A DNA stretch of 64,000 nt, from positions 1 through 64,000 of the forward strand of contig NZ_WTVH02000008.1 of NCBI RefSeq assembly GCF_012910785.2. Reading direction: 5' to 3'. Origin of the DNA: Aromatoleum buckelii (lineage in GTDB: Bacteria; Pseudomonadota; Gammaproteobacteria; Burkholderiales; Rhodocyclaceae). The notes under the pieces are model-generated. The model was not told the origin of the DNA. It did no database searches and saw only the letters and a list, made by a program, of their open reading frames with translations. This document shows, one piece after another, positions 8,608 through 25,435 of this stretch; position 1 is the first letter of the stretch; each line of letters opens with the position of its first letter. The translations under genes and the position numbers were made by a program.

Positions 8608-8690
8608 AACCTCCAGCATCAAGAATCGGGCGACGGAAGCGGAAGCGACGTTCGACGAGATGTTCGGCCGGATGAGCAACCGGACGTGCG

Positions 8691-8754
8691 CGAATCCTAG
8701 TGCCCCACCAGTCGATTCAAGTATTTAGGCCAGCTCTTGCGAGTTGGCCTTTTT
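8691..8754 (+). repeat. Direct repeat, copy 2 (attR-like)
   Basis: Imperfect copy of 5202-5265, also 64 bases. It keeps the last ~20 bases of tRNA-Lys(CTT) including CCA, the spacer GATTCAA and the terminator. The rest of the tRNA is absent, so it does not encode a tRNA. It marks the right edge of a 3.4-kb insertion carrying the hybrid sensor. Confidence 0.75.
8728..8754 (+). terminator. Intrinsic terminator downstream of the hybrid sensor
   Basis: Stem GGCCAGCTC / GAGTTGGCC (one G-T pair), loop TTGC, then five T residues. It is the second copy of the tRNA-Lys terminator and ends transcription from the left before convergent rtcB. Confidence 0.85.
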
Positions 8755-10384: not shown

Positions 10385-10704
10385 CAGTCCGACTCCTCAT
10401 GCCAACCGGTGTTTACGCAGAGCACTTGAACGCCAGTGCCCGACAGCCTCGGCATTTTTTCCATCGCCGCAAGCGTTCCTCCCGTCCGCAAGCCTGCAGC
10501 CTTCGCAAGGTCGTGCAATAGGACATCTGCCGCAGGCTCGAGTTTGCAGTTCTTCCAATGTGCGGTCTGCGTCTCGATCGCCCGCCCGACGCATTGCAGC
10601 GTTCGTCGCCGAATCGGTCTGGCCGAAGCTGCGGGAGACGCGATTCCATCGTTGCCCGCAGCTCGATGCCTCCACGCCTGCGCCTGGCACGCAGCAGGAC
10701 CGCG
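10384..10704 (-). pseudogene. Possible 5'-truncated coding remnant coupled to the VOC gene
   Basis: An open frame of 106 codons, bounded upstream by TGA at 10705-10707 and ending in a TGA that overlaps the VOC start. The C-terminal half reads like protein (HWKNCKLEPAADVLLHDLAK, then AAMEKMPRLSGTGVQVLC). The first ATG comes only at residue 81. It looks like the tail of a gene whose front was lost. I do not recognise the family, and the frame could be chance. Confidence 0.3.
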
Positions 10705-10829
10705 TCAGTTTTTACACGGGCCGATGGTCGTTCGGTAGCTTTTACAGCGCGCGCTGCCAACGCCTCGGGGGCTCTTCCCGGCACCCGCCTTGCAGGCCGG
10801 TCCCAACACGGTCGGGACGGAGAACGATC
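10705..10829. other. Non-coding gap upstream of the TPP-enzyme remnant
   Basis: Together with the doubtful remnant at 10384-10704, this makes about 445 bases without a secure gene between divergent transcription units. The promoter of the 10.8-25 kb gene run must lie here, but no convincing -35/-10 pair is visible. Confidence 0.4.
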
Positions 10830-11540
10830 ATGAGCGACACAGTCGGCGACTTCCTGCTCCAGCGCCTGTCGGCATGGGGGGTCAAGAGGGTGTTCGGCTA
10901 TCCCGGCGACGGCATCAACGGCATCATGGGGGCGTTCGGCCGGTACGGCGAAGGGCTGCGCTTCGTGCAGGCGCGTCACGAGGAGCTCGCCGCGTTCATG
11001 GCGTGCGCGCACGCGAAATTCACCGGCGAAGTCGGCGTGTGCCTGGCCACTTCGGGCCCCGGGGCGATCCATCTCCTGAACGGCCTCTACGACGCGAAGC
11101 TCGACCACCAGCCGGTGTGGCGCGAGTGGACTGACCCGCGCCTCGTGGTGATGGTGCTCAACAACGGCGACCTCAACCAGGTGACGTGGGAGCAGCGCGC
11201 CATGGAAGGCGACCCGAAGTTCATCGACGCGCAGGCGGTGCCCGATTTCCCGTACGCCGAGTACGCGCGGCTGCTGGGCCTGGGCGGCATGCGCGTCGAC
11301 GACCCGAGAGAAGTGGGCACGGCGTGGGACGCGGCACTCAGTGCGGAGCGCCCGACGCTCCTCGAGATGGTCACCGACCCGGACGTGCCGCCGCTGCCCC
11401 CGCACATCAGCGCGAAGCAGGCCAAAGCGTACCTGTCGGCGCTGCTGCACGGCGACCCCGACTCGCTCGGCATCGTCGTTGCGAGCTTCAAGGAAAGCTG
11501 GGATAGCCTGTTCCCGCCGGACAAATCGTCAGCGGGGTGA
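10830..11540 (+). pseudogene. Thiamine-pyrophosphate enzyme with its middle deleted in frame
   Basis: Encodes 236 residues where the pyruvate-oxidase/acetolactate-synthase-like family has roughly 580-600. Residues 1-92 match the family N-terminus (FLLQRLSAWGVKRVFGYPGD, catalytic-type Glu in ARHEELAAFMA, TSGPGAIHLLNGLYDAKL). After DHQPV the frame jumps directly to the C-terminal third (WTDPRLVVMVLNNGDLNQVT, then TDPDVPPLPPHIS). The central domain and the GDG part of the TPP-binding motif are absent, so no catalysis is expected. Start codon, ribosome site (GGACGGAG) and stop are intact. It opens the run of same-strand genes. Confidence 0.85.
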
Positions 11541-11547
11541 ACGCGAC

Positions 11548-11931
11548 ATGGCCCTTGTGGACAGCACGGCCCCGATCGAATCGGTCACGGTCGCGAGCTA
11601 CACGATCCCGACCGATGGGCCCGAGTCCGACGGCACGCTCGAATGGGACGCGACGACGCTCGTGGTGGCCCACGTCACCGGCGGCCGCCGAACCGGCCTC
11701 GGCTACGGCTACACGGACACCGCCACCGCGCGACTGATCCACGATCGGCTCGCGCCGCTGCTGCACGGGCGCGACGCACTCGCGACGAACGCGCGCTGGC
11801 AGGACATGGCGGTCGCGATCGGCGACGGCGCGCCCGACCCGGTCGACGGCCGCCTCGCTCCGGCCGACGACCGCCCCGGCTTCGGCCTGGTGTTCAAGGA
11901 ACAGGACGCCCGATGCTTCGAAAACCCCTGA
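11548..11931 (+). pseudogene. Enolase-superfamily (mandelate racemase/muconate cycloisomerase) enzyme with its middle deleted
   Basis: Encodes 127 residues where the family has about 360-380. The N-terminal capping segment is present (IESVTVASYTIPTDGPESDG, TTLVVAHVTGG, TGLGYGYTD) and so is the very C-terminus (GDGAPDPVDGRLAPADDRPG, FGLVFKEQDARCFE). The whole catalytic barrel with its metal ligands is missing. The join falls near residue 93, after MAVAI. It follows the TPP remnant by 7 bases and overlaps the likely start of the FAD/Fe-S gene. Confidence 0.8.
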
Positions 11932-14858
11932 ACGGCGCCGATGAAACGCGCCCCGCCATGCCCGTCGACACCACGGCGCTGTCGCGGCGCGCCGGCGTCG
12001 ATTTCGCCGCGCTCGAACACGATCTGCGCGAGGTCCTCGCCGGCGAAGTGCGCTTCGACGCGGGCAGCCGCGCGCTGTATGCGACCGACGCGTCGAACTA
12101 CCGCCAGGTGCCGATCGGCGTCGTGATCCCGCGCTCGACCGACGACGTCGTGCGCACGGTGGAGATCTGCCGGGGCCACCACGCGCCGATCCTGTCGCGC
12201 GGCGCCGGCACGAGCTTGTGCGGCCAGTGCTGCAACATCGCGGTGGTGCTCGATTTCTCGAAATACCTCAACCGCATCATCGACATCGACGCCGAAAAGA
12301 AGATTGCGCGCGTCGAGCCCGGCGTCGTGCTCGACGAGCTGCGCGAGGCGGCCGAAAAAGTCGGCCTCACGTTCGCCCCCGACCCGGCGACCCACAGCCA
12401 CAACACGCTCGGCGGCATGATCGGCAACAACTCCTGCGGCCCGCACTCGGTGATGGGCGGGCGCACCGAGGAGAACGTGCTCGAGCTCGACATCCTCACC
12501 TACGACGGGCTGCGCTGCCGCGTCGGCACGACGGACGCGGAGACGTTTGCGCAAATCGAGGCTGAAGGCGGCCGTCGGGCCGACATCTACCGCCGGCTGC
12601 GGGCGCTCGGCGAACGGTACGCCGAGCCGATCCGCCGCTGCTACCCTGACATCCCGCGCCGCGTGTCGGGGTTCAACCTGCGCGCGCTGCTGCCCGGGAG
12701 CAGCTTCGATCTCGCCCGCGCGCTGGTCGGCTCCGAAGGCACGTGCGTCGTCGTGCTCGAAGCGACCGTGCGCCTCGTGGACAGCCCGCCGGCGCGCACG
12801 CTGCTGGTGGCGGGTTTTCCCGACGTGTATGCGGCTGCGGACGCCGTACCCGAAGTCATGGCGGCCGGCCCGATCGCGCTCGAAGGCATGGACGATCGGC
12901 TGGTCGGCGACATCGAGTCGATGGGGCTCGCGCCGGGCAACGTCGGGCTGCTGCCCGAAGGCGCCGGCTGGCTGCTGGTCGAGTTCGGCGGCGCCGACCG
13001 GGACGAGGCCGAGGGCCGGGCCCGCGCGCTGATGGAACGGCTCGAGCGCGCCGAGCCGAAGCCGTCGATGAAGCTGTACGCCGACGCGGCTGAAGCACAG
13101 CGAGTGTGGAAGATCCGCGAATCGGGTCTGGGCGCGACCGCCCACGTGCCCAACGAACGGCTGACCTGGGAAGGCTGGGAAGACTCCGCGGTCGCGCCCG
13201 AGAACCTCGGCCGCTACCTGCGCGAGCTGCGCGCGCTGCTCGACCGCCACGGCTATCGCGGCGATTTTTACGGTCATTTCGGCCAGGGCTGCCTGCACAC
13301 TCGCATCGACTTCGACCTAGAAACGGCCGACGGCATCGCCCGCTACCGTGCCTTCATCCACGAGGCCGCGCGCCTGGTGTCGGGGCTGGGCGGCTCGATC
13401 TCCGGCGAACACGGCGACGGCCAGTCCAAGGCCGAGCTGCTGCCGATCATGTTCGGCGACGAGGTGGTGCAGGCCTTTCGCGAGTTCAAGGCGATATGGG
13501 ACCCGGACAACCGCATGAACCCGGGCAAGGTCGTCGATGCGTTCCGCGTCGACGAGAACCTGCGCCTGGGCACCGGCTACGATCCGCGGCCAGTCGAAAC
13601 CCGCTTCGCCTACACGTCGGACAACGGCGACTTTGCGCGCGCGATGCTGCGCTGCGTCGGGGTCGGCGCCTGCCGCAGCAAGAAAGGCGTAATGTGCCCG
13701 AGCTACATGGCCACCGGCGAGGAGATGCACTCGACACGCGGGCGCGCGCATCTGCTGTTCGAGATGCTGCGCGGCGAGACGCTGACGGGCGGCTGGAAGG
13801 AGCCGGCGGTCAAGGAAGCGCTCGACCTGTGCCTGTCGTGCAAAGGCTGCAAGGGCGAATGCCCGGTGCGCGTCGACATGGCGACCTACAAGGCGGAGTT
13901 CTTCTCGCACTACTACGAAGGCCGCCTGCGCCCGATCTCGGCCTATGCGTTCGGGCTCATCGACGTGTGGTCGCGCGCCGCGTCCCACGCGCCCGGCGTC
14001 GCGAACTTCTTCTCGCGCACCGAACCGTTCGCGGGCTTCGCCAAATGGCTCCTCGGCATTCATCCCGCGCGGCGTCTGCCGGCGTTCGCGATGGAAGCTT
14101 TTGCGCCGGCCTTCCGCCGCCGGCGGCCGCCCGCCGCAGCGGGAAAGCCGTTGATCCTGTGGCCGGACACGTTCAACAACCATTTCCACCCCGAGGTGGC
14201 GCTGGCCGCGGTGCAGGTGCTCGAGCACGCCGGCTTCGAAGTGCGCCTGCCGCCGGTGCGGCTGTGCTGCGGCCGCCCGCTGTACGAGTTCGGCATGCTC
14301 GACCGGGCCCGGCGCTACCTGCTGCGCATCCTCGACGCGCTCGACACGCAGATTCGCGACGGCCTGCCCGTCGTCGTCCTCGAACCGGCCTGCCTCACCG
14401 TTTTTCGTGAGGAACTGCCGCAGATGCTGGCCGGCAACGAGCAGGCCAGGCGGCTGAGCAGCCAGGTCTTCCTGCTGAGCGAATTTCTCGAGCAACGCGC
14501 CCCGCACGCGCGCTTCGGCACCCTCGCGCGCCGCGCGGTGGTGCACGGCCACTGCCACCACCAGGCAGTCATCGGCATGGACGCGGAAGCCGCGGTACTG
14601 AAAAAACTCGGCCTCGACTACGAAATCCTCGACTCCGGCTGCTGCGGCATGGCCGGCGCGTTCGGCTTCGAAAAGGACAAGTACGACGTGTCGATGCGCT
14701 GCGCCGAGCGCGCGCTGCTGCCTGCGGTGCGCGCGGCCGCCGACGACACGCTGCTGATCGCCGACGGCTACAGCTGCCGCGAGCAGATCGTGCAGAGCAC
14801 CGCCCGCCGGCCGCTGCATCTCGCCGAAGTGCTGCGCCTGGCCCTCAAAGGAGAATGA
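11913..14858 (+). CDS. FAD/Fe-S dehydrogenase (D-lactate/glycolate dehydrogenase type)
   Basis: A large single-chain oxidoreductase expected to oxidise a 2-hydroxy acid and pass electrons through FAD and Fe-S clusters to the membrane chain. About 981 residues from ATG 11913, which has AGGA at good spacing; ATG 11958 would give 966. An N-terminal FAD-binding domain (PILSRGAGTSLCGQCCN, HNTLGGMIGNNSCGPHS) and FAD-oxidase C domain (ISGEHGDGQSK) occupy about 30-560. A ferredoxin-like part follows, with CVGVGACRSKKGVMCP and CLSCKGCKGECPV near residue 640, and a CCG-type domain with LCCGRP and DSGCCGMAGAFGFE. It appears intact, unlike its two upstream neighbours. The exact substrate is unknown. Confidence 0.88.
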   Translation: MLRKPLNGADETRPAMPVDTTALSRRAGVDFAALEHDLREVLAGEVRFDAGSRALYATDASNYRQVPIGVVIPRSTDDVVRTVEICRGHHAPILSRGAGTSLCGQCCNIAVVLDFSKYLNRIIDIDAEKKIARVEPGVVLDELREAAEKVGLTFAPDPATHSHNTLGGMIGNNSCGPHSVMGGRTEENVLELDILTYDGLRCRVGTTDAETFAQIEAEGGRRADIYRRLRALGERYAEPIRRCYPDIPRRVSGFNLRALLPGSSFDLARALVGSEGTCVVVLEATVRLVDSPPARTLLVAGFPDVYAAADAVPEVMAAGPIALEGMDDRLVGDIESMGLAPGNVGLLPEGAGWLLVEFGGADRDEAEGRARALMERLERAEPKPSMKLYADAAEAQRVWKIRESGLGATAHVPNERLTWEGWEDSAVAPENLGRYLRELRALLDRHGYRGDFYGHFGQGCLHTRIDFDLETADGIARYRAFIHEAARLVSGLGGSISGEHGDGQSKAELLPIMFGDEVVQAFREFKAIWDPDNRMNPGKVVDAFRVDENLRLGTGYDPRPVETRFAYTSDNGDFARAMLRCVGVGACRSKKGVMCPSYMATGEEMHSTRGRAHLLFEMLRGETLTGGWKEPAVKEALDLCLSCKGCKGECPVRVDMATYKAEFFSHYYEGRLRPISAYAFGLIDVWSRAASHAPGVANFFSRTEPFAGFAKWLLGIHPARRLPAFAMEAFAPAFRRRRPPAAAGKPLILWPDTFNNHFHPEVALAAVQVLEHAGFEVRLPPVRLCCGRPLYEFGMLDRARRYLLRILDALDTQIRDGLPVVVLEPACLTVFREELPQMLAGNEQARRLSSQVFLLSEFLEQRAPHARFGTLARRAVVHGHCHHQAVIGMDAEAAVLKKLGLDYEILDSGCCGMAGAFGFEKDKYDVSMRCAERALLPAVRAAADDTLLIADGYSCREQIVQSTARRPLHLAEVLRLALKGE

Positions 14859-14859
14859 C

Positions 14860-15231
14860 ATGGACCCGATCGGAAAACGCCGCTGGGCGATCGCCGAAGG
14901 CTATATTCCGCCGTCGAGCACCGACGCGAGCTACGAGCTGAAAAGCCACGAGGCCGCGTGCATCCTGAACGCGGGCGACCGGCTCGCGCAGATCGAAATC
15001 ACGATCTTCTTCACCGACCGGGAACCGGCCGGCCCTTACCTGCTGACGGTGCCGCCGCGGCGCACCTGCCATCTGCGCTTCGACGAACTCGACAACCCGG
15101 AGCCGATCCCGGTCAACACCCCCTATTCGAGCGTCATCGAATCGACGGTGCCGATCGTCGTCCAGCACACCCGGCTCGACTCGCGCCAGGCGGCGCTCGC
15201 GCTGCTCACGACGATCGCGTACGCCGATTAG
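14860..15231 (+). CDS. Sensory-rhodopsin-transducer-like (ASRT family) protein
   Basis: A 123-residue soluble protein closely fitting the family of the Anabaena sensory rhodopsin transducer. Hallmarks are GKRRWAIAEGYIPPSS, ITIFFTDREPAGPYLLTVPP, RRTCHLRFDEL and SVIESTVPIVVQHTRLDSRQ. The Anabaena protein forms a tetramer and binds a microbial rhodopsin and DNA; relatives without a rhodopsin have no settled role. No rhodopsin is encoded in the window. A good ribosome site (AAAGGAGA) precedes the start, which lies one base after the FAD/Fe-S stop. Full length for the family. Confidence 0.87.
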   Translation: MDPIGKRRWAIAEGYIPPSSTDASYELKSHEAACILNAGDRLAQIEITIFFTDREPAGPYLLTVPPRRTCHLRFDELDNPEPIPVNTPYSSVIESTVPIVVQHTRLDSRQAALALLTTIAYAD

Positions 15232-15241
15232 CGCGCCGGCA

Positions 15242-16660
15242 ATGTCCCCGGCCGAACACGATGAACACATGGCGCAGATGCGCGAGATGCACGGCCGCAT
15301 GCTGTGGACGCATTTCGCGATCATCACGCTCGGCCTCTGGTGCCTGACCGCGCCGGCGATCCTCGGCTACATGGAACCCGGCAACTGGGGGGCCGGCGCC
15401 GAGCAGGTGACGACCGAGCGCGCGCTCGCGCCGCTCGCCTCGCGCGCCGCGGCGCTCGCGTGGAGCGACATCGCCAGCGGTGCGCTGCTCGTCGTGTTCG
15501 GCACGCTGTCGCTGTTCTGGCGCCACCGCTGGGCGCAGTGGGGCAGCTGTTTCACCGGCATCTGGCTGCTCGCCGCGCCGCTGGTGTTCTGGTCGCCCGA
15601 GCCCGCGTCCTATGCCAACGACACGCTGGTCGGCGCGCTCGCGATCGCGTTTTCGATCCTCGTGCCGATGATGCCGGGCATGAGCATGGAAGCGATGCAC
15701 GACGAGCGCGACATCCCGCCCGGGTGGAGCTACTCGCCGTCGGCGTGGTCGCAGCGCCTGCCGATGATCGCGCTGGCCTTCGTCGGCTTTTTCATCGCCC
15801 GCTATCTCACCGCCTACCAGATGGGCCACGTCTCCACGGTGTGGGACCCGTTCTTCGACGACGGCACCGCCCGCATCATCACTTCCGACGTGTCACGCGC
15901 GTGGCCGATCCCCGACGCGGGGCTCGGCGCGATGAGCTATCTGCTCGAAGCGCTGTCCGGGATGATGGGCGGACGCCAGCGCTGGCGCACGATGCCATGG
16001 ATGGTCGCGATGTTCGGCGTGCTGGTGATCCCGCTCGGCGCGGTGAGCATCTTCTTCATCATCATCCAGCCGATCGTCATCGGCACCTGGTGCACGCTGT
16101 GCCTCGCGTCTGCCGCGGCGATGGTGTTCATGCTGCCGTACGCGATCGACGAAGTGGTCGCGATGACCCAGTTCCTGATCGGTGCGAAACGCGCCGGGCA
16201 ACCGCTGTCGAGGGTTTTCTGGCACGGCGGCGTCATTGATGGCGCGGGCCGCGACGAGCGCCCGCCGCTCGCGATCGACGCGACCGCACTCGACCGGCTG
16301 CGCGATCAGGCCCGCGTGCTGCCCAAGGCGCTGATCCTCGCCACCGCGCTCGGCATCTGGCTGATGTTTACCCGCACGATTTTTGGTACCGACGGGGCGA
16401 TGGCCGACAGCGATCACCTGATCGGCGCGCTGGTGTTTACCGTGTCGATCACCGCGTACGCCGAGACGGCCCGGCCGCTGCGGGCGCTGAACATGGTGTT
16501 CGGTGCGTGGCTGATCGTCGCACCGTGGGTGCTCGACGGCGGCTCGGCAGCGGCCGACGTCGCCGGCATCATCGTCGGCGCGTTGCTGATCGTGCTCGCG
16601 ATCCCGCGCGGGCCCGTCGTGCGCTCGTATGCCGGCTGGGACCGCTACCTCGTGTGGTGA
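15242..16660 (+). CDS. SPW-repeat / vitamin-K-epoxide-reductase-like membrane protein
   Basis: A 472-residue polytopic membrane protein. The N-terminal ~150 residues and the C-terminal ~100 look like SPW-repeat membrane hairpins (FTGIWLLAAPLVFW; NMVFGAWLIVAPWVLDG). Between them lies a VKOR-like segment with GTWCTLCLASAAAMVFMLPY, whose Cys284-x2-Cys287 is the expected quinone-linked active-site pair. VKOR proteins supply oxidising equivalents for disulfide formation or reduce quinones. The partner here could be the downstream oxidase, but that is inference. It lies 10 bases after the ASRT gene. Confidence 0.78.
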   Translation: MSPAEHDEHMAQMREMHGRMLWTHFAIITLGLWCLTAPAILGYMEPGNWGAGAEQVTTERALAPLASRAAALAWSDIASGALLVVFGTLSLFWRHRWAQWGSCFTGIWLLAAPLVFWSPEPASYANDTLVGALAIAFSILVPMMPGMSMEAMHDERDIPPGWSYSPSAWSQRLPMIALAFVGFFIARYLTAYQMGHVSTVWDPFFDDGTARIITSDVSRAWPIPDAGLGAMSYLLEALSGMMGGRQRWRTMPWMVAMFGVLVIPLGAVSIFFIIIQPIVIGTWCTLCLASAAAMVFMLPYAIDEVVAMTQFLIGAKRAGQPLSRVFWHGGVIDGAGRDERPPLAIDATALDRLRDQARVLPKALILATALGIWLMFTRTIFGTDGAMADSDHLIGALVFTVSITAYAETARPLRALNMVFGAWLIVAPWVLDGGSAAADVAGIIVGALLIVLAIPRGPVVRSYAGWDRYLVW

Positions 16661-16676
16661 GCGAAGGCCCGGACAG

Positions 16677-17474
16677 ATGAACCTGTTCAGGGAGCGGATC
16701 CAGTGGATGAAGGAAAACAGGCCGCTCAGGCGGCTCGAGCGCTGGATCGAAGGGCCGATGGTCTTTCTCGCCTTCGTCTGGATCGGACTGCTGATCGTGG
16801 AGTTCGTCGGCGGCCCGCGTGACTGGCTCGACACGGCGAGCAACCTGATCTGGGCCGTTTTCATCGGCGACTTCGTGCTGCGCTTCGCGCTGGCCAAGGG
16901 CAAGCTCGCCTACATCAGCCAGAACTGGCTCACGCTCGTGTCGCTCGCGCTGCCGGCGCTGCGCGTGTTCCGCCTGACCCGCGTGCTGCGGCTCACGCGT
17001 GCGACCCGCGGGCTGCGGCTGGTGCGCCTGACCACGTCGCTCAACCGCAGCATGCGCGCGCTCGCGCGCAGCATGGGCGGCAAGGGCGCCGGCTACGTCG
17101 TGGCGCTGACGCTGGTCGTGACGTTTTCCGGCGCAGCCGGCATGTATGTGCTCGAGGAAGGGGCGTTCACGAGCTACTGGGATGCGCTGTGGTGGACCGC
17201 GATGATCGTCGCGACGATGGGCAGCGACTTCTGGCCCCGCACGCCGGAAGGCCGCGTGCTGTGCCTCGCGCTCGCGATCTACGCGTTCTCGGTGTTCGGC
17301 TACGTCACCGCCGCGCTCGCGTCGTTCTTCGTCGAGCGCGGCGGCCTGCCCGACCCCGGCGGCCCGGACGCGCTGCGCGCGGAGCTGGCCGCGCTGCGCA
17401 AGGAAACCGCGCGTCTCACCGAGGCCCTCGGCAGGCAGGCCGGACAGGCGGCCGGCGCGAAACGCCCGCCGTGA
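16677..17474 (+). CDS. Voltage-gated-type ion channel with atypical selectivity filter
   Basis: A 265-residue six-helix channel. S1-S3 cover about 26-95. S4 is arginine-rich (LRVFRLTRVLRLTRATRGLR, 95-114). A pore loop and S6 follow at about 140-205, and a short C-terminal coiled coil at about 217-255. The filter reads TMGSD (180-184) instead of the potassium-channel TVGYG, so ion selectivity is uncertain. The start at 16677 has weak ribosome-site support. It shares the direction and tight spacing of the flanking genes. Confidence 0.8.
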   Translation: MNLFRERIQWMKENRPLRRLERWIEGPMVFLAFVWIGLLIVEFVGGPRDWLDTASNLIWAVFIGDFVLRFALAKGKLAYISQNWLTLVSLALPALRVFRLTRVLRLTRATRGLRLVRLTTSLNRSMRALARSMGGKGAGYVVALTLVVTFSGAAGMYVLEEGAFTSYWDALWWTAMIVATMGSDFWPRTPEGRVLCLALAIYAFSVFGYVTAALASFFVERGGLPDPGGPDALRAELAALRKETARLTEALGRQAGQAAGAKRPP

Positions 17475-17575
17475 CGCGCACGATCCGGAGCAATCCGCCA
17501 GTCCGCATCGTCCGGCAGGGCACCCCGATTGCTTTCGCAGCCGATGCGATCCGATTCGTCCCGGGAGGCAGCAAT

Positions 17576-17653
17576 ATGGCAAGAGCACATCCGTCGATTC
17601 CCCGCCGGTCCTTCCGTCGATCTCCCGCGCCCCCGGCTCTGCGCGAGCCCTGA
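17576..17653 (+). CDS. Possible 25-residue leader peptide before the oxidase genes
   Basis: A short frame with a strong ribosome site (GGGAGGC, 5 bases before ATG) encodes an Arg/Pro-rich peptide starting MARAHPSIPRRSF and ending 14 bases before coxB. It may be a translated leader, a remnant of a deleted gene, or chance. Confidence 0.3.
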   Translation: MARAHPSIPRRSFRRSPAPPALREP

Positions 17654-17667
17654 TCGGCGGCGCGCCC

Positions 17668-18600
17668 ATGCTCGACAACATCCAGTCGGCTCTCGCCCCG
17701 CGCGGCCCGGAAGCGGCCGGAATCCTCGAGATCACCTGGGTGCTCGTCGTCGGCGGGGCGCTGATATTCACGCTGGTCCTCGCGCTGACCGCGCTGGCCT
17801 TTTTCGCCCCACCGCGCTGGCTTGCCGGCAAGGGCCTGATCATCGGCGCCGGCATCGTTTTCCCGGTGATCACGCTCGCGGCATTGCTGATTTACACGCT
17901 GCTCGCCGCGCCGCGGCTTTCGGCAGTGGAGCCGGCCGACGTGACGATCGAAGTGGTCGGGCATCAGTGGTGGTGGCGGGTGAATTATCTCGACGCGCGC
18001 GGTGAAGTCGATTTTGCGACCGCGAACGAAATCCATCTGCCGGTCGGCCGGACGGTCGAGTTGCGGCTGCGCTCGGCCGACGTGCTGCACAGCTTCTGGG
18101 TGCCGTCGCTTGCCGGCAAGCTCGACCTGATCCCGGGCAAGGACAACCGGCTGCGTCTGGCCGCCACCGAGGCTGCGGTGCTGCGCGGCCAGTGCGCCGA
18201 GTACTGCGGCGGCCCGCACGCGCAGATGGCACTGTTCGTCGTCGCCGAGGCGCCGGAGCGCTTCGAGGCGTGGCGCGCGGCGCAGCGCCAGCCTGCCGCC
18301 ATCGCGGCCGAGGACGCGGCCGACAGCGAAGCGGCGAGCGGCCGGCGGCTGTTCCTGTCGCACTGCACGACCTGCCATACCGTGCGCGGCACCCGGGCCG
18401 AAGGCGAGCTCGGGCCCGACCTGACCCATTTCGCGAGCCGGCTGTCGCTCGGCGCCGGCATCCTGCCGAACAACCGCGCGACCGTTGCAGGCTGGATCGC
18501 CGGCAACCAGCACCTGAAACCGGACAACCTGATGCCCGAGTTCCGTTTCGACAGCGGCGAACTGCGCACGCTCGCGCACTGGCTGGAGACGCTCGAATAA
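17668..18600 (+). CDS. coxB: Cytochrome c oxidase subunit II with fused cytochrome c (caa3 type)
   Basis: Subunit II accepts electrons from cytochrome c and passes them through CuA to subunit I. The 310-residue product has two N-terminal membrane helices (20-80) and a cupredoxin domain with a complete CuA site: His141, Cys176 and Cys180 in QCAEYCGGPHAQM, His184 and Met187. The aromatic electron-entry segment HQWWWRVNY is at 99-107. A C-terminal class I cytochrome c carries CTTCH at 233-237 and a distal Met in NLMPEF. Fusion of cytochrome c is the caa3 hallmark. The stop directly abuts the next ATG. Confidence 0.93.
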   Translation: MLDNIQSALAPRGPEAAGILEITWVLVVGGALIFTLVLALTALAFFAPPRWLAGKGLIIGAGIVFPVITLAALLIYTLLAAPRLSAVEPADVTIEVVGHQWWWRVNYLDARGEVDFATANEIHLPVGRTVELRLRSADVLHSFWVPSLAGKLDLIPGKDNRLRLAATEAAVLRGQCAEYCGGPHAQMALFVVAEAPERFEAWRAAQRQPAAIAAEDAADSEAASGRRLFLSHCTTCHTVRGTRAEGELGPDLTHFASRLSLGAGILPNNRATVAGWIAGNQHLKPDNLMPEFRFDSGELRTLAHWLETLE

Positions 18601-18852
18601 ATGTTCAAGGACCTGCCCCTCCCGATCAACGTCGCCGTGTTCCTGGCCGCCGGGGTCGTCGTGTGGCTGGCCGGCACGCGGGTGGCGCACTTCGCGACTT
18701 TCGCCGCGATCCTCGGCATCGCCGTGACCGGGCTGTTCATCGCCGGCCTGCTCGAGCGGCGCCACGTCATGATCCTGCGCCTGGGCAGCGACTCGCTGCT
18801 CGTCCTCGCGATCTACGCGGCGGGGCTCACGGTGCTCTACACGCTCAGATGA
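18601..18852 (+). pseudogene. Na+/Ca2+-exchanger-family protein with its middle deleted
   Basis: Encodes 83 residues where the exchanger family has about 330-370. The first ~32 residues resemble the first helix of CaCA-type exchangers (INVAVFLAAGVVVWLAGTRV). The remainder resembles the last helices (ILGIAVTGLFIAGLLERRH, then ILRLGSDSLLVLAIYAAGL). Both ion-binding alpha repeats are absent. The join falls at about residue 32. Start and stop are intact, and the stop overlaps the next start (ATGA). It could instead be a genuine two- or three-helix small protein. Confidence 0.65.
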
Positions 18853-21365
18853 CCGCGCTGCCGAATCCGGGCGTTCGCCCCGAGGGTGAAGTCGACGAAC
18901 TGCGCCGGCTGTGGCGGCGGCCGCAGGGGCTGCGCGCGGTCACCGTCATCAACAACAACTACGTCGGCGTGCTCTACGTCGGCGCCGCTTTCCTGTTCTT
19001 CGTGCTGGCCGGCATCCTCGCGCTCGTGATGCGCGTGCAGCTGGCGGTGCCCGAGAACGACTTCATCGGTCCGGCACTGTACAACCAGCTGTTCACGATG
19101 CACGGCACCGTTATGATGTTCCTGTTCGCCGTGCCGGCGGTCGAGGCGATGGGCATCCTGCTGCTGCCGAACATGCTCGGCGCACGTGACCTGCCGTTCC
19201 CGCGGCTGTCGGCGTATGCGTTCTGGGCCTACCTGGTCGGCGGGCTGGTATTCTTCGCGAGCATTTTTGTCGGCTGGGCGCCTGACGGCGGCTGGTTCAT
19301 GAATCCGCCGCTGACCACCGAAACCTACTCGCCCGGCTACAACGCCGATTTCTGGCTGCTCGGCATCGGCTTCATCGAAATTTCCGCGATCGCCGGCGCA
19401 ATCGAAATCATTGTCGGCATATTGCGCACCCGCTCTCCCGGCATGACGTTGGGCAGGATGCCGGTATTCGCGTGGGCGATGCTGGTGTTCGCGCTGATGA
19501 TCGTCTTCGCGTTTCCGGCGGTGATCCTCGCGACCGCGCTGCTCGAACTCGAGCGCGCTTTCCACTGGCCGTTCTTCGCCGCGCATCTCGGCGGCGACCC
19601 GCTGCTGTGGCAGCACCTGTTCTGGTTCTTCGGCCATCCCGAGGTGTACATCATTTTCCTGCCCGCGGCGGGCATGGTGTCGATGATCGTGCCGACGATG
19701 GCGCGCACGCCGCTCGTCGGCTACCGCTTCGTCGTCCTGGCGCTGGTCGGCACCGCGTTCCTGAGCTTCGGGCTGTGGGTGCACCACATGTTCACAACCG
19801 GCATCCCGCAGCTGTCACTGTCGTTTTTCCAGGCCGCGAGCACTGCGGTCGCGATCCCCTCGGGCATCCAGGTCTTCGCGTGGATCGCGACTTTTGCGCG
19901 CGGTCGCGCGACCGGACGGGTGCGGATCGCGACGCCGACGCTGTTCATCCTCGGCTTCCTGTTCATCTTCGTGCTCGGCGGGCTCACCGGCGTGATGGTC
20001 GCGGTGATCCCGTTCGACTGGCAGGCGCACGATAGCTATTTCATCGTCGCCCACCTGCATTACGTGCTCGTCGGCGGCATGGTGTTTCCGCTGTTCGCGG
20101 CGTTCTACTACTGGATGCCCTACACCAGCCGGCACGCGCTGTCCGAGCGGCTCGGGCGCTGGGTGTTCGGGCTGATGTTCGTCGGCTTCAACATCACGTT
20201 CTTCCCGATGCATTTCACCGGGCTCGCCGGCATGCCGCGCCGCGTCTACACCTACGCGGCAGGCTACGGCTGGGAGAGCCTGAACTTCGTCTCGACCGTC
20301 GGCGCGTTCATGATCGCCGCCGGCGTGCTGATCTTCATCATCGACGTCGCGCGGCGCTTTCGCATGTCGGCCGAGGACAACGCGGGCAACGTCTGGCACG
20401 CCGGCACGCTCGAATGGCTGCCGAACGGCAATTACTCGAACCGCAGCATTCCGGTCGTCACCAGCCGCGAGCCGCTGTGGGACCAGCCGGACCTGGCGCG
20501 CGACGTCGAAGCCGGCCACTACTACCTGCCGGGCGCGCCGACCGGCGGGCGCGAGACGATCGTCACGAGCCCGCTCGACGCACGGCCCGAGTTCGTGCTG
20601 CGCATGCCGATGCCCGGCTGGGCGCCGGTCGTCGCGGCGTGGTTCACCGCCGGCTTCTTCCTGCTGCTGACGGTCAAGCTCGTCGTGCCGGCTTTCATCT
20701 CGGGCGTTGTCGCGGTCGGCGCGCTGCTGCACTGGGGCTGGAGCCTCGATCCCGAGCCGCTCGACGAACCGGTCGACATCGGCGGCGGCATCGTGTTGCC
20801 GAGCTACATGAGCGGGCCGCGCTCCCAGGCCTGGTGGGCGATCGGCGTGCTGATCCTGGTGTCGGGTTCGCTTTACGGCTGTGCCGTGTTTTCGTATCTC
20901 TACCTGTGGACCGTGTCGCCCGAAGTCTGGCCCGCACCCGCGCAGGTCGCCGGCATCGGCTATCCGCTCGCCGAAGCGGCCCTGCTCGTCGCCAGCAGCC
21001 TCGCGCTGGGGCTCGCGAACCGACAGCTCGGCGCCGGCCGGCGCCGCGCGATGGCGCTCGCGGTTGTGGCCGGCCTGGTCCTGCTGGTCGCAGCGGTCGG
21101 GCTGGAGTTTTTCGCGCAGGGCGAGCTGTCGCCGAGCGCGTCGAGCTACGGCGCCGCAGTCTATCTGCTCGCATCGATCGCCGGCTTCTTCACGCTGGTC
21201 GTGCTCGTGATGGGGCTGTTCGCGCTCGCCCGCGCTGCGACCGGCAAGCTCGGCCCGGTACGCCGCGTGACTTTCGACAACATGCGCCTGTTCTGGCACT
21301 ACACCGTCGGCCAGAGCTTGGTCGGCGTCGCGCTGGTGCACGGCTTTCCGAGGTTCGCGGGATGA
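18849..21365 (+). CDS. Cytochrome c oxidase, fused subunits I and III
   Basis: An 838-residue fusion. The subunit I part (to about residue 530) has heme-a ligand His85 (TMHGTVMMF), CuB ligand His263 with the crosslinking Tyr267 (GHPEVYI), CuB ligands His312-His313 (HHMFTTGIP) and the heme ligands in AHLHYV (His402, His404). Glu265 of GHPEV marks an A-type proton channel. The remainder is subunit-III-like (RPEFVLRMPMPGWAPVVAAW, then seven-helix character). Fused I+III chains are known in other caa3/A-type oxidases. Its ATG overlaps the preceding stop. Confidence 0.93.
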   Translation: MTALPNPGVRPEGEVDELRRLWRRPQGLRAVTVINNNYVGVLYVGAAFLFFVLAGILALVMRVQLAVPENDFIGPALYNQLFTMHGTVMMFLFAVPAVEAMGILLLPNMLGARDLPFPRLSAYAFWAYLVGGLVFFASIFVGWAPDGGWFMNPPLTTETYSPGYNADFWLLGIGFIEISAIAGAIEIIVGILRTRSPGMTLGRMPVFAWAMLVFALMIVFAFPAVILATALLELERAFHWPFFAAHLGGDPLLWQHLFWFFGHPEVYIIFLPAAGMVSMIVPTMARTPLVGYRFVVLALVGTAFLSFGLWVHHMFTTGIPQLSLSFFQAASTAVAIPSGIQVFAWIATFARGRATGRVRIATPTLFILGFLFIFVLGGLTGVMVAVIPFDWQAHDSYFIVAHLHYVLVGGMVFPLFAAFYYWMPYTSRHALSERLGRWVFGLMFVGFNITFFPMHFTGLAGMPRRVYTYAAGYGWESLNFVSTVGAFMIAAGVLIFIIDVARRFRMSAEDNAGNVWHAGTLEWLPNGNYSNRSIPVVTSREPLWDQPDLARDVEAGHYYLPGAPTGGRETIVTSPLDARPEFVLRMPMPGWAPVVAAWFTAGFFLLLTVKLVVPAFISGVVAVGALLHWGWSLDPEPLDEPVDIGGGIVLPSYMSGPRSQAWWAIGVLILVSGSLYGCAVFSYLYLWTVSPEVWPAPAQVAGIGYPLAEAALLVASSLALGLANRQLGAGRRRAMALAVVAGLVLLVAAVGLEFFAQGELSPSASSYGAAVYLLASIAGFFTLVVLVMGLFALARAATGKLGPVRRVTFDNMRLFWHYTVGQSLVGVALVHGFPRFAG

Positions 21366-21661
21366 ACTTCGTTGCGACCAGCCTGCGCCTGTCCGCCGGA
21401 GTCATCGTCTGGGCGCTGCATTTTTCCGTGATCTACGGCCTGAGCGCACTGGCCTGCGCGCGCAGCGCGCCGCAGGCCGTACCGTGGGTGATCGGCGTCG
21501 CGACTCTCGTCGCGATCGGAGCCTGCGTTGCGATCATCGTCCGGGAGCTCGGCCAAGGGCCGGGCTTCGAGCCGTGGCTCGCCGCCGGGCTCGCGGTGCT
21601 CGCGCTGCTCGCGATTCTGTGGGAAGCGCTGCCGGTGCTGATGGTGGCGCCATGCGTGTGA
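21362..21661 (+). CDS. Small membrane protein of the oxidase cluster
   Basis: A 99-residue protein with three predicted membrane helices (VIVWALHFSVIYGLSAL, PWVIGVATLVAIGACVAII, LAAGLAVLALLAILWEALPV). The start overlaps the fused-subunit stop (ATGA) and its end overlaps the next gene. It may be an accessory or subunit IV-like component of the oxidase; no specific family is recognised. Confidence 0.75.
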   Translation: MNFVATSLRLSAGVIVWALHFSVIYGLSALACARSAPQAVPWVIGVATLVAIGACVAIIVRELGQGPGFEPWLAAGLAVLALLAILWEALPVLMVAPCV

Positions 21662-22011
21662 CCGCCCTCCTCGCGCTCGCCTGGGTGGCCCTGCTGGCCG
21701 GCTGCAGCGATGAGTCTCGCCCCGTGCTCGGCGGCGATGCGGAAAACGGACGCCTGTTGCTGCGGCAGTTCGGCTGCATCGGCTGCCATCGCATCCCCGG
21801 CGTCGCGGGCGCGACCGGCAACGTCGGCCCGCCGCTGGACGGCGTCGGCCGCCGGGTGTACCTGGCCGGCGTGCTGCCGAATTCGCCGGCCAACATGATG
21901 CGCTGGATCCGCGATCCGCAGTCCTTCGGCTTCGAAACCGCGATGCCCGACCTGCAGGTCACCGAAAGCCAGGCTCGCGACATGGTCGCTTATCTCCAGG
22001 AGCTGAAGTGA
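21652..22011 (+). CDS. Lipoprotein c-type cytochrome
   Basis: 119 residues with a lipoprotein signal (LAWVALLAGCSDES), so it is probably membrane-anchored and periplasmic. One heme motif CIGCH lies near residue 43, with HRIPGVAGATGNVGPPLDG after it and a distal Met in TAMPDLQV. The layout matches the second heme domain of the next gene, which suggests duplication. It overlaps its upstream neighbour by 10 bases. Confidence 0.88.
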   Translation: MRVTALLALAWVALLAGCSDESRPVLGGDAENGRLLLRQFGCIGCHRIPGVAGATGNVGPPLDGVGRRVYLAGVLPNSPANMMRWIRDPQSFGFETAMPDLQVTESQARDMVAYLQELK

Positions 22012-22012
22012 A

Positions 22013-22846
22013 GTGAAAAAGATCCTCCTCACCGTCGTCGCGCTGGCGACTGCGGCCGGGCTCGCGGGCGCGGCAGTGGTCTATGGAGGCTTTTACGACA
22101 TTTCCGCGACCGACCAGCACCTCGCGCCGACCTACCGGCTGCTCGACATCGCGATGCGCCGTTCGATCAAGCTGCGCGCGGCATCGGTCACCGTCCCGTC
22201 GCTCGACACGATCGGCGCACTGGAACACGGCGCGCCGCTCTACCGGGACCACTGCGCGCAGTGCCACGGCGCGCCGGGCGTCGCTCCCGAACCTTTCGCG
22301 CTCGGCCTGACGCCCGCGGCGGCCAACCTCGCGCACACCGGCCGGGCGTGGCCAGCCGAGGAGATTTACTGGGTCGTCCGGCACGGCATCAAGATGACCG
22401 GCATGCCGGCCTGGGAGCAGCGCCTGAGCGAAAGCGAACTCTGGGCGGTCACTGCGTTCGTCAAGAAGCTGCCCGAGCTCTCGCCGCCGGACTACCGCCG
22501 GCTGGTCGCCGACATCCCGCCCCACGACCATGCCCACGACCACGGCGAGGAGCCGGCACCGCAGCGGCCGGATGCCGAGCGCGGCAGGCGGATCATCCAA
22601 CAGTACGCCTGCGTCACCTGCCACCGGATTCCCGGCATCGTCGGCCCGAACGCGCCGGTCGGTCCGCCGCTCGATGGCATCGCCACGCGCGCGTTCATCG
22701 CCGGTGCACTGCGCAACGAGCCGGCGCACATGGTGCGCTGGCTGCGCTCGCCGCAGGAGGTCACGCCGGGCAGCGCGATGCCGGATCTCGGTGTCGACGA
22801 GCGCGACGCGCACGACATTGCCGCCTACCTCGCGACGCTGAAATAG
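22013..22846 (+). CDS. Membrane-anchored diheme cytochrome c
   Basis: 277 residues from a GTG start with AGGAG upstream. An N-terminal helix (LLTVVALATAAGLAGAAVVY) is an uncleaved anchor or signal. The first heme site is CAQCH with distal Met in TGMPAWEQ; the second is CVTCH followed by RIPGIVGPNAPVGPPLDG and distal Met in SAMPDLGV. A histidine-rich linker (PPHDHAHDHGEE) joins the two and could bind metal. It is likely an electron donor to the caa3 oxidase. Confidence 0.88.
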   Translation: MKKILLTVVALATAAGLAGAAVVYGGFYDISATDQHLAPTYRLLDIAMRRSIKLRAASVTVPSLDTIGALEHGAPLYRDHCAQCHGAPGVAPEPFALGLTPAAANLAHTGRAWPAEEIYWVVRHGIKMTGMPAWEQRLSESELWAVTAFVKKLPELSPPDYRRLVADIPPHDHAHDHGEEPAPQRPDAERGRRIIQQYACVTCHRIPGIVGPNAPVGPPLDGIATRAFIAGALRNEPAHMVRWLRSPQEVTPGSAMPDLGVDERDAHDIAAYLATLK

Positions 22847-22940
22847 CCCCGCGACGCGGCCCGGCGCGAATGCGGGCGATCACCCACGGAAGGGCCGTCG
22901 CCTACGCCTGCTGCCGAGGCGGTTGCCCCCGGCCTCCGGG

Positions 22941-23654
22941 TCACTGCGCGGAAACAGGCTGCGTAACGATCCCGTCATCGCGCACGGTGTAGCGCGTGCC
23001 GTCCTCGATAGTGGCGGTAAATGGCGCGTCATTCGCCGGAAGTGCAATCGAGAGTCGTCCCGGGCGGCATGTGCGATGCCTTCGCAACTCGCGCGGCCGA
23101 AGCGAAAAATCACGCTCGCCGGTCGTCCGATAAGCGACGCGTTCCCCGCTGCGGTTCTGCACCTCGAAGCGGATCGATGCGCTTTTCGGTCGGCCGAACA
23201 TCTGCACGCCGAAAAAACGTCCGTCCTCGCCCTGCGCGAGGCCGACGCCCGTCTGCGTGACGGCCGGCGCGAGCATGTTCTCGCGGTGCTCGGGCGAATT
23301 TTTCCAGCCTTCGACGAAGGCCTCGGCAAGCTCCGCGGACGAGCCGAAACCGTCGGAGCGGTACTGGTAGCCGATGTTCTCGGCGACGATGCAGTACTCG
23401 TAGCCTTCGGCCAGCGCCCGCTCGGACGGGCGGCGCCCGTCGGCGTTGTGGCCGTAGCGCCCGGTCTTCGCCATGAAGCGGGCGAAGTCGCGCGCGGTCC
23501 GCTCGAGCGCCGCATCGCGCTCGACCGGCGCGAGCCCCTGCGCTTCGCGAAAAACGTTCGTTCGCGAAACGATCTCCGCCGCCGTCTCGCCGACGTCCGC
23601 CGCAGCGAAGCCCAAGGCCGGACCGGCGAGGATCGCCGCCAGCAGTCCTCTCAC
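22941..23654 (-). CDS. Secreted CAP-domain (SCP/PR-1-like) protein
   Basis: 237 residues from a GTG start chosen because it opens a good signal peptide (RGLLAAILAGPALGFAAA); the open frame extends to 23720. The CAP domain is recognised by TNVFREAQGLAPVERDAALE, the His in GRYGHNADG, YCIVAENIGYQYR and FVEGWKNSPEHRENMLAPAV. A C-terminal beta-rich extension of about 70 residues follows. CAP proteins are extracellular with varied roles; function here is unknown. It is convergent to the cytochrome genes. Confidence 0.82.
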   Translation of the reverse strand: MRGLLAAILAGPALGFAAADVGETAAEIVSRTNVFREAQGLAPVERDAALERTARDFARFMAKTGRYGHNADGRRPSERALAEGYEYCIVAENIGYQYRSDGFGSSAELAEAFVEGWKNSPEHRENMLAPAVTQTGVGLAQGEDGRFFGVQMFGRPKSASIRFEVQNRSGERVAYRTTGERDFSLRPRELRRHRTCRPGRLSIALPANDAPFTATIEDGTRYTVRDDGIVTQPVSAQ

Positions 23655-23724
23655 CGCGCCACGCCTTCGCGCGCAACCGAACGCGTCGCCCGGGCAGCCG
23701 CCCGCCTCGCTCCCGCGCACGGCG

Positions 23725-23790
23725 TCACCCGGCCTGTGCCACGAGCGGCGCGGCGGGCAAAAGCGCGACGTGAAGTCCGATGGTCTTCAT
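23725..23790 (-). CDS. 21-codon frame with signal-peptide-like sequence (gene remnant?)
   Basis: A strong ribosome site (GAAGGAGAT) precedes ATG and a hydrophobic stretch (LHVALLPAAPLVAQA), then stops after 21 codons. It looks like the start of an exported protein whose body was deleted. Upstream of the CAP gene on the same strand. Confidence 0.35.
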   Translation of the reverse strand: MKTIGLHVALLPAAPLVAQAG

Positions 23791-23929
23791 GACGGTGATC
23801 TCCTTCGAATCGACGTGGCCGCAGACGCAAGGCGCATTCCCGCACGCATTGGGCGCGCCGCGGCGTGCGGCGTGGGTATGGCGATTGCCTTGCCGATCGA
23901 GCCCGTTTCATTTTTCCTGGAGGAGCCAC

Positions 23930-24016
23930 ATGCCGCCGCCGATTCTGCCGTCACTCAGAGTCCTCGCCGTGGCGCTCGCGGTCGCGAGGCGCCAGGAATC
24001 CCATGAAGCCGCGTAG
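23930..24016 (+). CDS. 28-codon frame with signal-like N-terminus (gene remnant?)
   Basis: A near-ideal ribosome site (TGGAGGAG) precedes ATG. The peptide begins MPPPILPSLRVLAVALAVA and ends at 24016, overlapping the start of the aminotransferase remnant. It fits the local pattern of genes that keep their ends but lose their bodies. Confidence 0.35.
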   Translation: MPPPILPSLRVLAVALAVARRQESHEAA

Positions 24017-24386
24017 CGCGTCGCCACGGACTCGGCCGACGAACCGCCGGCAGTTTCTCGTGCACAGCGGCCTTGCTTTGGCTGCCGTCGCGACCGGCAC
24101 CGGCTGCGGGCCCTCCAGTCGGCAGGCCCCATCGTCGGCGTCGCCCGCCACCACGGCAGCTCGCCGACCGGGCGACGGTGAGTGGGACGCGGTGCGCGAG
24201 CAGTTCGCGCTGGCCGACGACTACATCCACATGTCCGCGCTGTATGTCGCGTCGCACCCGCAACCGGTGCGCGAAGCGATCGAACGGCACCGGGGCGCGC
24301 CGGGCGACGAGATCGTGACCACCGAGCACGACTACTACGCGACCCAAGTCGACGCGGCGCTCGCAGCGATCGGCGAGCTGGGCTGA
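24003..24386 (+). pseudogene. Class V aminotransferase (isopenicillin-N-epimerase-like) with two internal deletions
   Basis: Encodes 127 residues where the family has about 400-430. A twin-arginine-like signal (NRRQFLVHSGLALAAV) leads into a normal N-terminus (EQFALADDYIHMSALYVASH, PVREAIERHRG). The frame then jumps to PGDEIVTTEHDYYATQ, an internal family motif, and jumps again to the C-terminal tail VDAALAAIGELG. The PLP lysine region is gone. Start and stop are intact and in frame. Confidence 0.75.
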
Positions 24387-24391
24387 GTCTG

Positions 24392-25435
24392 ATGAGCCCG
24401 GATTCCGGCACCGCCGTCTTCATCCAGCGCGTGCTGATCGTGCTCGGGCTGGTCGTGCTCGGGCTGTTCCTGTGGCGCATCGCCTACGCGCTGCTGCTGG
24501 GCTTCGGCGGGGTGCTGGTGGCGGTCTTCCTGCGCGGACTCGCCAGCAAGCTGCATCAGTGGACCGGACTGAGCATGGGCTGGTCGTTGGCACTGATCAG
24601 CATCGGGCTGGTCGGGCTGCTGGGGCTCACCGCCATGCTGATCGGCCCTTCGATCGCCAGCCAGTTCCGCGACCTGAACGACACCCTCACGCAGGGCATC
24701 GAGCAGGTGCGCGGGTTTCTCGCACAGCAGCCGTGGGGCCAGCGGCTGCTGCGCAGCGTCACCCAGAATGCCTCGCAAGGCGGCGACCTGCTGCGCAGCG
24801 CCGCCAAAGTCTTCGCAGGCGCGGCCGACGCGCTGCTCGCCTTCGTGCTGGTGCTGTTCGCCGGCGTCTATTTCGCGCTCAGGCCGGACACCTACGCCGA
24901 CGGCCTAGTGCGCCTCGTGCCGAAACCACGGCAGGCGCGCGCACGCGAAGTGCTCCAGGCCACTGGCAACGCGCTATGGCTGTGGCTGCTCGGTCAGTTC
25001 GTCGTGATGGCAATCGTCGGCGTGCTGACTACCGTCGGGCTGCTCCTCGCCGGCGTGCCGCTCGCACCGGCGCTCGGGCTGATCGCCGGCCTGCTCGAAT
25101 TCGTCCCGTTTCTCGGTCCGATCGTCGCCGCGGTGCCGGTCCTCCTGGTAGCGCTCACCGTCGACCCGCAGACCGCGCTCTACGCGATGCTCGTGCTGCT
25201 GGTGATCCAGCAGACTGAAAGCAACCTGCTCGAGCCGGTGGTCGAGCGCAGGGCGGTCGCGCTGCCGCCGGTGCTGGTGCTCGTCGGCACGATCGCCTTC
25301 ATGCTGCTGTTCGGCGTTCTCGGCGCGGTGTTCGCGACCCCGCTGCTGGTCGTCACGCTGGTGGCGGTGAAGATGCTGTACATGGAAGACGCACTGGGCG
25401 AACCGGTGCACCTCCCCGGGGAGCGCTCGCCGTGA
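24392..25435 (+). CDS. AI-2E-family (PerM/TqsA-like) membrane transporter
   Basis: 347 residues, the usual size, with about eight membrane helices. Family marks are the N-terminal helix pair (VLIVLGLVVLGLFLWRIAYA), a soluble helical segment at about 85-150 and the C-terminal block LGLIAGLLEFVPFLGPIVAA followed by QQTESNLLEPVVERRAVALP. Members export autoinducer-2 or other small molecules, or exchange sodium for protons; substrate unknown. It begins 6 bases after the aminotransferase remnant and looks intact. Confidence 0.87.
   Translation: MSPDSGTAVFIQRVLIVLGLVVLGLFLWRIAYALLLGFGGVLVAVFLRGLASKLHQWTGLSMGWSLALISIGLVGLLGLTAMLIGPSIASQFRDLNDTLTQGIEQVRGFLAQQPWGQRLLRSVTQNASQGGDLLRSAAKVFAGAADALLAFVLVLFAGVYFALRPDTYADGLVRLVPKPRQARAREVLQATGNALWLWLLGQFVVMAIVGVLTTVGLLLAGVPLAPALGLIAGLLEFVPFLGPIVAAVPVLLVALTVDPQTALYAMLVLLVIQQTESNLLEPVVERRAVALPPVLVLVGTIAFMLLFGVLGAVFATPLLVVTLVAVKMLYMEDALGEPVHLPGERSP

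Follow-up and report, generated by a model that had tools for sequence, protein, structure and literature searches.

In-frame loss of gene middles in an accessory stretch of Aromatoleum buckelii and a proposed filter by downstream genes

Introduction

How can several neighboring genes lose their middles and still be read as continuous open frames? This question is raised by a 13.6-kb stretch within the window analyzed here, that is, the 64,000 nucleotides comprising bases 1-64000 of contig C5 from the 4.16-Mb genome of A. buckelii (G000; 10 contigs). A first-pass annotation had proposed that four genes of this stretch are gutted in frame at five joins, and had considered three causes: recombination between short repeats combined with selection against polarity, a retained role of the short products, and an assembly artefact. 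The comparison with related genomes described below favors the first cause, which is partly supported, over the weaker two. With a probability only slightly above one half (about 0.53), the stretch was shaped by short-homology deletions of dispensable genes, with selection against polarity acting as a filter in coupled operons.

Results

Four genes are reduced to their ends

The homologous locus was sought in 61 genomes, of which 60 are relatives and one is the window's own. The sister species G007 of the same genus carries the same locus and matches the window on both flanks of the alignment. The only other members of the genus with parts of the locus are G005 and G010. G007 was the reference for the joins in the TPP enzyme, the enolase-superfamily enzyme and the aminotransferase, and a 352-aa protein of G010 was used for the CaCA exchanger. 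These alignments established that all five proposed joins are real and correctly placed. Full-length copies do exist in relatives: the TPP, enolase and aminotransferase genes are intact in G007 and CaCA is complete in G010. The family names assigned to the remnants were upheld on these full-length proteins by matches to the Pfam families TPP_enzyme N/M/C, MR_MLE, Aminotran_5 and Na_Ca_ex.

All features described here lie on the forward strand. The TPP-enzyme remnant (10830..11540) has 236 aa compared to 599 in full length. Relative to G007, 1089 bp (0 mod 3) have been lost at 11115-11117 with a junction homology of 2 bp, and the N-terminal 95 codons are joined to the C-terminal 140. According to Pfam, TPP_enzyme_N is largely preserved and TPP_enzyme_C is represented by its second half; the first half of this C-terminal domain is absent, as is the central domain. 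The enolase-superfamily (MR_MLE) remnant (11548..11931; 127 instead of 368 aa) was delimited by its join, the Pfam match of the G007 protein and a gene call; it lacks 723 bp (0 mod 3) at 11823-11824, with 1 bp of homology. The class V aminotransferase remnant (24003..24386; 127 instead of 457 aa) contains two joins, the first at 24296-24301 (168 bp lost, 5-bp homology CGCGC) and the second at 24346-24347 (822 bp lost, 1-bp homology); both losses are 0 mod 3 relative to G007. Finally, the CaCA exchanger remnant (18601..18852; 83 instead of 352 aa) matches both ends of the G010 protein and lacks about 266-269 residues. Its join lies near 18682-18697, the exact position being blurred by divergence. 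The reading frames stay open across each of these joins. At the four base-resolved joins of the window, where a check for short direct repeats had been suggested, the junction homologies are short (2, 1, 5 and 1 bp).

The conserved functional core is missing from all four proteins. The TPP remnant is devoid of its central domain, and the enolase, CaCA and aminotransferase remnants gave no match to a Pfam family at E 0.01. The lost regions have catalytic roles.

The genes between the remnants are intact in the window, as had been proposed, according to Pfam matches and gene calls. They code for an FAD-linked oxidase / Fe-S protein (11913..14858; Pfam, gene call), a member of the Anabaena sensory rhodopsin transducer family (ASRT; 14860..15231; Pfam), an SPW/VKOR membrane protein (15242..16660; Pfam), an ion channel (16677..17474; Pfam; a longer reading begins at 16629) and CoxB, the cytochrome oxidase subunit II with a cytochrome c domain (17668..18600; Pfam, gene call). 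The gene called at 18849..21365, which is intact and which we take to code for a coxA-type oxidase subunit, has relatives at 77 of 80 coxB loci. An intact transporter gene of the AI-2E family (24392..25435; Pfam) follows the aminotransferase remnant. One additional event had been overlooked: compared to G007, a loss of 415 bp has removed most of a BON-domain gene just 5' of the aminotransferase and left a stub (23930..23994). It extends past the stop codon and out of the gene, and is neither internal nor 0 mod 3.

Every gutted gene is followed on the same strand by a gene that overlaps it or begins at most 16 bp downstream, except that enolase and FAD/Fe-S are 26 bp apart by an alternative start. 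The TPP stop and the enolase start are separated by 7 bp. For FAD/Fe-S the candidate starts are ATG 11913, which is the called one and overlaps the 3' end of the enolase remnant, and ATG 11958, which gives the 26-bp spacing. There is no gap (0 bp) between the coxB stop and the CaCA start, the CaCA stop and the coxA start overlap by 4 bp, and AI-2E begins 5 bp past the aminotransferase stop codon. The SPW-channel spacing is 16 bp in the window; the gutted copy of SPW/VKOR itself is that of G007 (see below). The gene 3' of the gutted TPP gene is the gutted enolase, and the next intact gene is FAD/Fe-S. It is common to the remnants that the start signal lies beside the preceding gene and that the 3' end holds or touches the start of the following one.

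A full-length TPP copy is also present elsewhere in the window's genome (C2:979216-981079, gene 979238-981019). Its ends match the window remnant at 92-95%, and its middle is the part that the remnant lacks. This copy adjoins another SPW/VKOR-cox cluster. G007 likewise possesses a second full-length TPP gene (C2:289618-291414). The two G007 copies are 98% identical and the TPP ends of the window differ by 5-8% from their own paralogue; gene conversion may have occurred between the G007 copies. Short TPP homologues conserved in other genera, which had been named as a finding that would speak against gene loss, were not detected in a search of 300 genomes from the order with a cut-off of E 1e-60, below which a diverged short form could fall. 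Close matches (at least 62% identity) occurred in nine other genomes and were all near full length. A conserved family of short TPP proteins was rejected on the basis of this search.

The CaCA gene was gutted in two lineages

The 83-aa CaCA form is common to three species (those of the window, G007 and G005). In G010, the fourth species of the genus, the 352-aa gene lies between coxB and coxA. From this distribution, the CaCA loss is older than the window-specific joins and was inherited. Homologues of the same short length therefore exist for CaCA within the genus, where they reflect inheritance, and not across genera, where they had been expected to argue against gene loss.

In order to assess the locus in other bacteria, the best 80 of 566 named coxB loci were inspected, and the coxB-coxA spacing was measurable in 77. 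At 19 of these 77 loci a CaCA gene is located between coxB and coxA; 17 are approximately full length and two are short. The short ones belong to Nitrosovibrio sp. Nv4 (L122) and Nv6 (L094). Compared to the full-length gene of Nitrosospira briensis (L099), both have lost 618 bp, and Nv6 has lost a further 249 bp; both lengths are 0 mod 3. The start and stop are retained, the positions of the joins are not those seen in the window's genus, and the junction homologies are 0 and 2 bp. The gutting in Nitrosovibrio is independent of that in the window's genus. At three of the 77 loci, spacers of 163, 220 and 359 bp contain no recognizable CaCA; if these spacers were decayed CaCA genes, the frame would not have been kept there.

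Two further surveys counted CaCA genes irrespective of their linkage to coxB. Among 125 genomes of the Nitrosovibrio family, this type of CaCA (at least 37% identity) was found eight times in full length, the query's own included, and twice in short form (Nv4 and Nv6). A few weak matches of low identity lie in short open frames in G714, G779 and G817. A class-wide search of 369 genomes yielded mostly distant homologues, and among the matches listed the only short frame of high identity was that of the window.

Losses are clustered and mostly in frame

The comparison of the window's genome with G007 comprised a 484-kb region surrounding the window, a 400-kb region surrounding the paralogous locus and a short extension. 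The aligned lengths were 385.8, 373.3 and 54.4 kb, about 813 kb in total. Counted were clean losses of at least 150 bp with at most 20 bp of slop that lay wholly within a gene called by codon usage. The survey covers gaps between aligned blocks, so that smaller losses may have been missed. One event of 91 bp and one of 69 bp were below the limit. A 276-bp difference (0 mod 3) within one gene at 44510-47065 of the window was set aside, because its overlapping matches look like a tandem repeat. An apparent internal loss of 64 bp on C2 was also set aside, since it reflects a tandem repeat that differs at the end of a gene. The two cleanest gaps of the 54-kb extension were inspected and comprise entire genes or spacers.

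Seven losses were counted in this way. The 13.6-kb stretch contains five of them, of which four belong to the window and one to G007. All five are in frame, in contrast to none of the two elsewhere (778 and 466 bp; Fisher p=0.048). The gene next to the 778-bp loss is on the opposite strand, and the one next to the 466-bp loss is 227 bp away. The clustering is clearer than the in-frame excess.

A chance of one third for each deletion to stay in frame, as previously assumed, is too low. When identical short words of these GC-rich genes are separated by at least 100 bp, they share the same codon phase in 37, 41, 45, 55 and 59% of cases for lengths of 1, 2, 3, 5 and 6 bp. Short-homology deletions are therefore biased towards keeping the frame, with actual odds from 37% (1 bp) to 59% (6 bp). 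The eight joins of the window, G007 and G005 have a summed homology of 20 bp, which is longer than for random joins (p=0.001); the Nitrosovibrio joins are outside these eight. For five of five losses in frame, p is 0.004 at one third each and 0.011 with phase-biased odds, and the latter odds give p=0.029 for the four joins of the window.

A broader count comprised ten events, namely the losses in TPP, enolase, aminotransferase (two) and SPW, the ancestral CaCA loss, two CaCA losses in Nitrosovibrio and two FAD losses in G005. Nine of the ten are in frame (p=0.002 with the measured Nitrosovibrio junctions, p=0.003 if the CaCA events are assigned average odds of 0.41). Losses that have taken a gene start or stop were not counted; these are the BON loss of the window and the TPP/enolase, FAD-front and channel losses of G005. 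Two small SPW differences in G005 (60 and 75 bp) were likewise left uncounted. Four of the five events that had not been seen in the first-pass annotation are in frame (p=0.11-0.12), and if the true phase bias were 60%, nine of ten would correspond to p=0.05. With p about 0.002-0.01 and small numbers, the excess of in-frame losses is suggestive but falls short of being conclusive.

Neighboring genes decay differently in related species

G007 lacks 1266 bp (0 mod 3) of the SPW/VKOR gene that the window retains intact; the G007 remnant is diverged and its start codon is gone. In G005, the TPP gene and about half of the enolase gene are missing and no original start is left. The FAD gene of G005 has lost its front and two further segments, one of 234 bp (in frame) and one of 796 bp (out of frame); as a result of the latter loss, the FAD remnant now reads in frame into ASRT. 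Furthermore, the channel gene is lost and SPW has a 60-bp in-frame loss plus a stop codon. In view of the out-of-frame loss in G005, in-frame loss is frequent but not universal.

The stretch lies at a different genomic place in G005 (window 10694-22853 versus G005 C1:2686560-2694530), and no match flanking the G005 copy was found in the 120 kb fetched. The block therefore seems to have moved as a unit. In a plasmid collection search with 23 records, none covered most of the query, and the 20 matches listed were single genes. In G007 (C2 ~1353784-1355276; L053:16784-18276), only the beginning of the AI-2E transporter gene follows the aminotransferase, and an unrelated stretch that carries a gene on the opposite strand takes the place of the remainder. 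As the aminotransferase is gutted in the window, each of the two species has broken a different member of this pair.

Protein changes differ between the remnants

Changes on the window branch were polarized with G010. The enolase remnant has accumulated 6 silent and 8 altering changes (6 and 2 in the intact G007 copy), the aminotransferase remnant 5 and 11 (2 and 2 in G007), and the TPP remnant 14 and 4 (13 and 5 in G007). The counts are small, and the difference between remnant and G007 copy yielded p=0.16 for enolase, 0.44 for aminotransferase and 0.08 for both together. The enolase and aminotransferase remnants thus lean towards relaxed change, which is not significant. When the TPP remnant was compared to four intact copies, 12 silent and 2 altering changes were unique to the window. 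Since the changes in TPP are mostly silent, either the loss is probably recent or the protein may still be constrained.

Pairwise comparison of the window with G007 gave dN/dS values of 0.10 (TPP ends), 0.17 (enolase ends) and 0.33 (aminotransferase), as compared to approximately 0.12-0.26 for ten intact neighbors. Automatic dN/dS values for coxA-G5, SPW-G5 and SCP-G7 were dropped as out-of-frame alignments. For CaCA, the three species pairs gave 0.31-0.56; with 17-22 site changes per pair, the CaCA frame is open and without indel in all three species. With respect to relaxed change, CaCA takes an intermediate position, and TPP shows no such tendency.

Discussion

A filter imposed by downstream genes

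The reading that we favor starts from an accessory run of tightly packed genes, from TPP through coxA and then the aminotransferase and the AI-2E transporter, some of which would be dispensable to individual species. Illegitimate recombination at homologies of 0-6 bp would remove DNA from this run. A loss that takes the end of a gene together with the ribosome-binding region of the next one would silence a useful downstream gene. A frameshifting loss would have the same effect, as ribosomes would stop early and translational uncoupling and Rho-dependent polarity would follow. The deletions that survive would be those that keep the start, the 3' end and the frame, and leave downstream translation untouched; codon-phased microhomology would help them to stay in frame. 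This presupposes that the genes, which are closely spaced, are co-transcribed and translationally coupled, and that the frame is maintained by selection and not just by phase-biased microhomology. Several events count against such a filter: the frame-breaking 796-bp loss, the lost start codons, the lost channel and the SPW stop in G005, and the lost SPW start in G007. The relaxed change in the remnants, being non-significant, slightly lowers our confidence as well. In the case of TPP, the loss may have occurred too recently for the frame to have been broken.

It is doubtful, though worth serious weight, that the dispensable island simply decays neutrally, its in-frame joins owing to codon-periodic microhomology and luck, and its remnants remaining open as a result of few stops in GC-rich DNA and of the young age of the losses. 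With phase-biased odds, luck of this kind is not extreme for four of four (p=0.029) or five of five losses (p=0.011), nor for the events detected only in this analysis (p about 0.11), and G005 decays in places without regard to frame. Neutral decay accounts less well for nine in-frame events out of ten and for the two outside losses, both out of frame. Moreover, CaCA has stayed open without indel in three species despite the changes accumulated between them, and the independent CaCA losses in Nitrosovibrio kept the frame with homologies of only 0 and 2 bp.

We consider it improbable that the short products are functional in themselves, for instance as a small membrane protein derived from CaCA. 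A retained role could hold for CaCA, whose dN/dS is below 1, and for TPP, whose ends are as conserved as an intact copy. For enolase the dN/dS of the ends resembles that of intact neighbors, but altering changes outnumber silent ones on the window branch, as they do for the aminotransferase, and a role of either remnant has little support. In addition, three remnants match no Pfam family and TPP has no middle, and the TPP, enolase and aminotransferase joins were absent from G005, G007 and G010, the other members of the genus with parts of the locus.

An assembly artefact, or a mixture of mis-joined strains, is very improbable, even though a single assembly is the source of the four window-specific deletions. 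The CaCA remnant is present in three separate assemblies (G000, G005 and G007), in-frame CaCA losses recur in Nitrosovibrio, and no N occurs in the 484 kb examined. Collapse between repeats was rejected, as joins with only 1-5 bp of homology are hard to obtain in this way. Locus-specific cutting, for example by a self-targeting nuclease with end joining, would make repeated deletions and thus match the clustering in one stretch in three species, but relaxed selection on accessory genes explains this equally well and the idea has next to no probability.

Relation to known systems

The locus represents natural gene loss in an accessory stretch, probably filtered by neighboring genes, and not a new system. 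It resembles bacterial pseudogenes under deletional bias, where dispensable genes lose DNA by short-homology illegitimate recombination. Pseudogenes are, however, usually recognized by frameshifts, stop codons or missing ends, whereas here the start, stop and frame are kept and the middle is gone. In-frame, non-polar knockouts are laboratory practice, and the resulting scars are similar in that they retain the start, the end and the frame, so that translation of the downstream gene continues; the present ones are natural, several occur in one stretch, and that of CaCA arose independently in a second lineage as well. Translational coupling and transcriptional polarity are established properties of operons, in which genes overlap or abut and early stops harm downstream expression. 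They have usually been demonstrated with laboratory mutants, whereas here they are proposed as a filter on gene loss. The recurrent in-frame gutting of operon genes, above all of CaCA between coxB and coxA, is unusual; among the open-access articles listed, no title or beginning of an abstract was found that describes it.

If selection for downstream translation shapes the death of operon genes, in-frame scars would arise instead of classical pseudogenes. Annotation would then list the scars as genuine short genes, and where they lie would provide a natural record of translationally coupled operon genes. The coxB-CaCA-coxA arrangement, which was gutted independently in two lineages, offers a ready model. 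As a tentative generalization, operons might accumulate scar genes whose product is irrelevant and whose frame is kept so that ribosomes reach the next gene. CaCA would be a long-lived example in two lineages, and many short hypothetical genes of operons might be such translational linkers.

Sequences upstream of the stretch

Two observations concern the DNA that precedes the TPP gene. Positions 10507-10658 of the window match C1:107484-107639 at 81%; as similar pieces occur in G005, G008 and G011, this segment resembles a small dispersed repeat located 5' of the TPP gene. Positions 8500-8693, at the end of a hybrid histidine kinase-GGDEF-hemerythrin gene, match C1:271910-272107 in the window's own genome at 95%.
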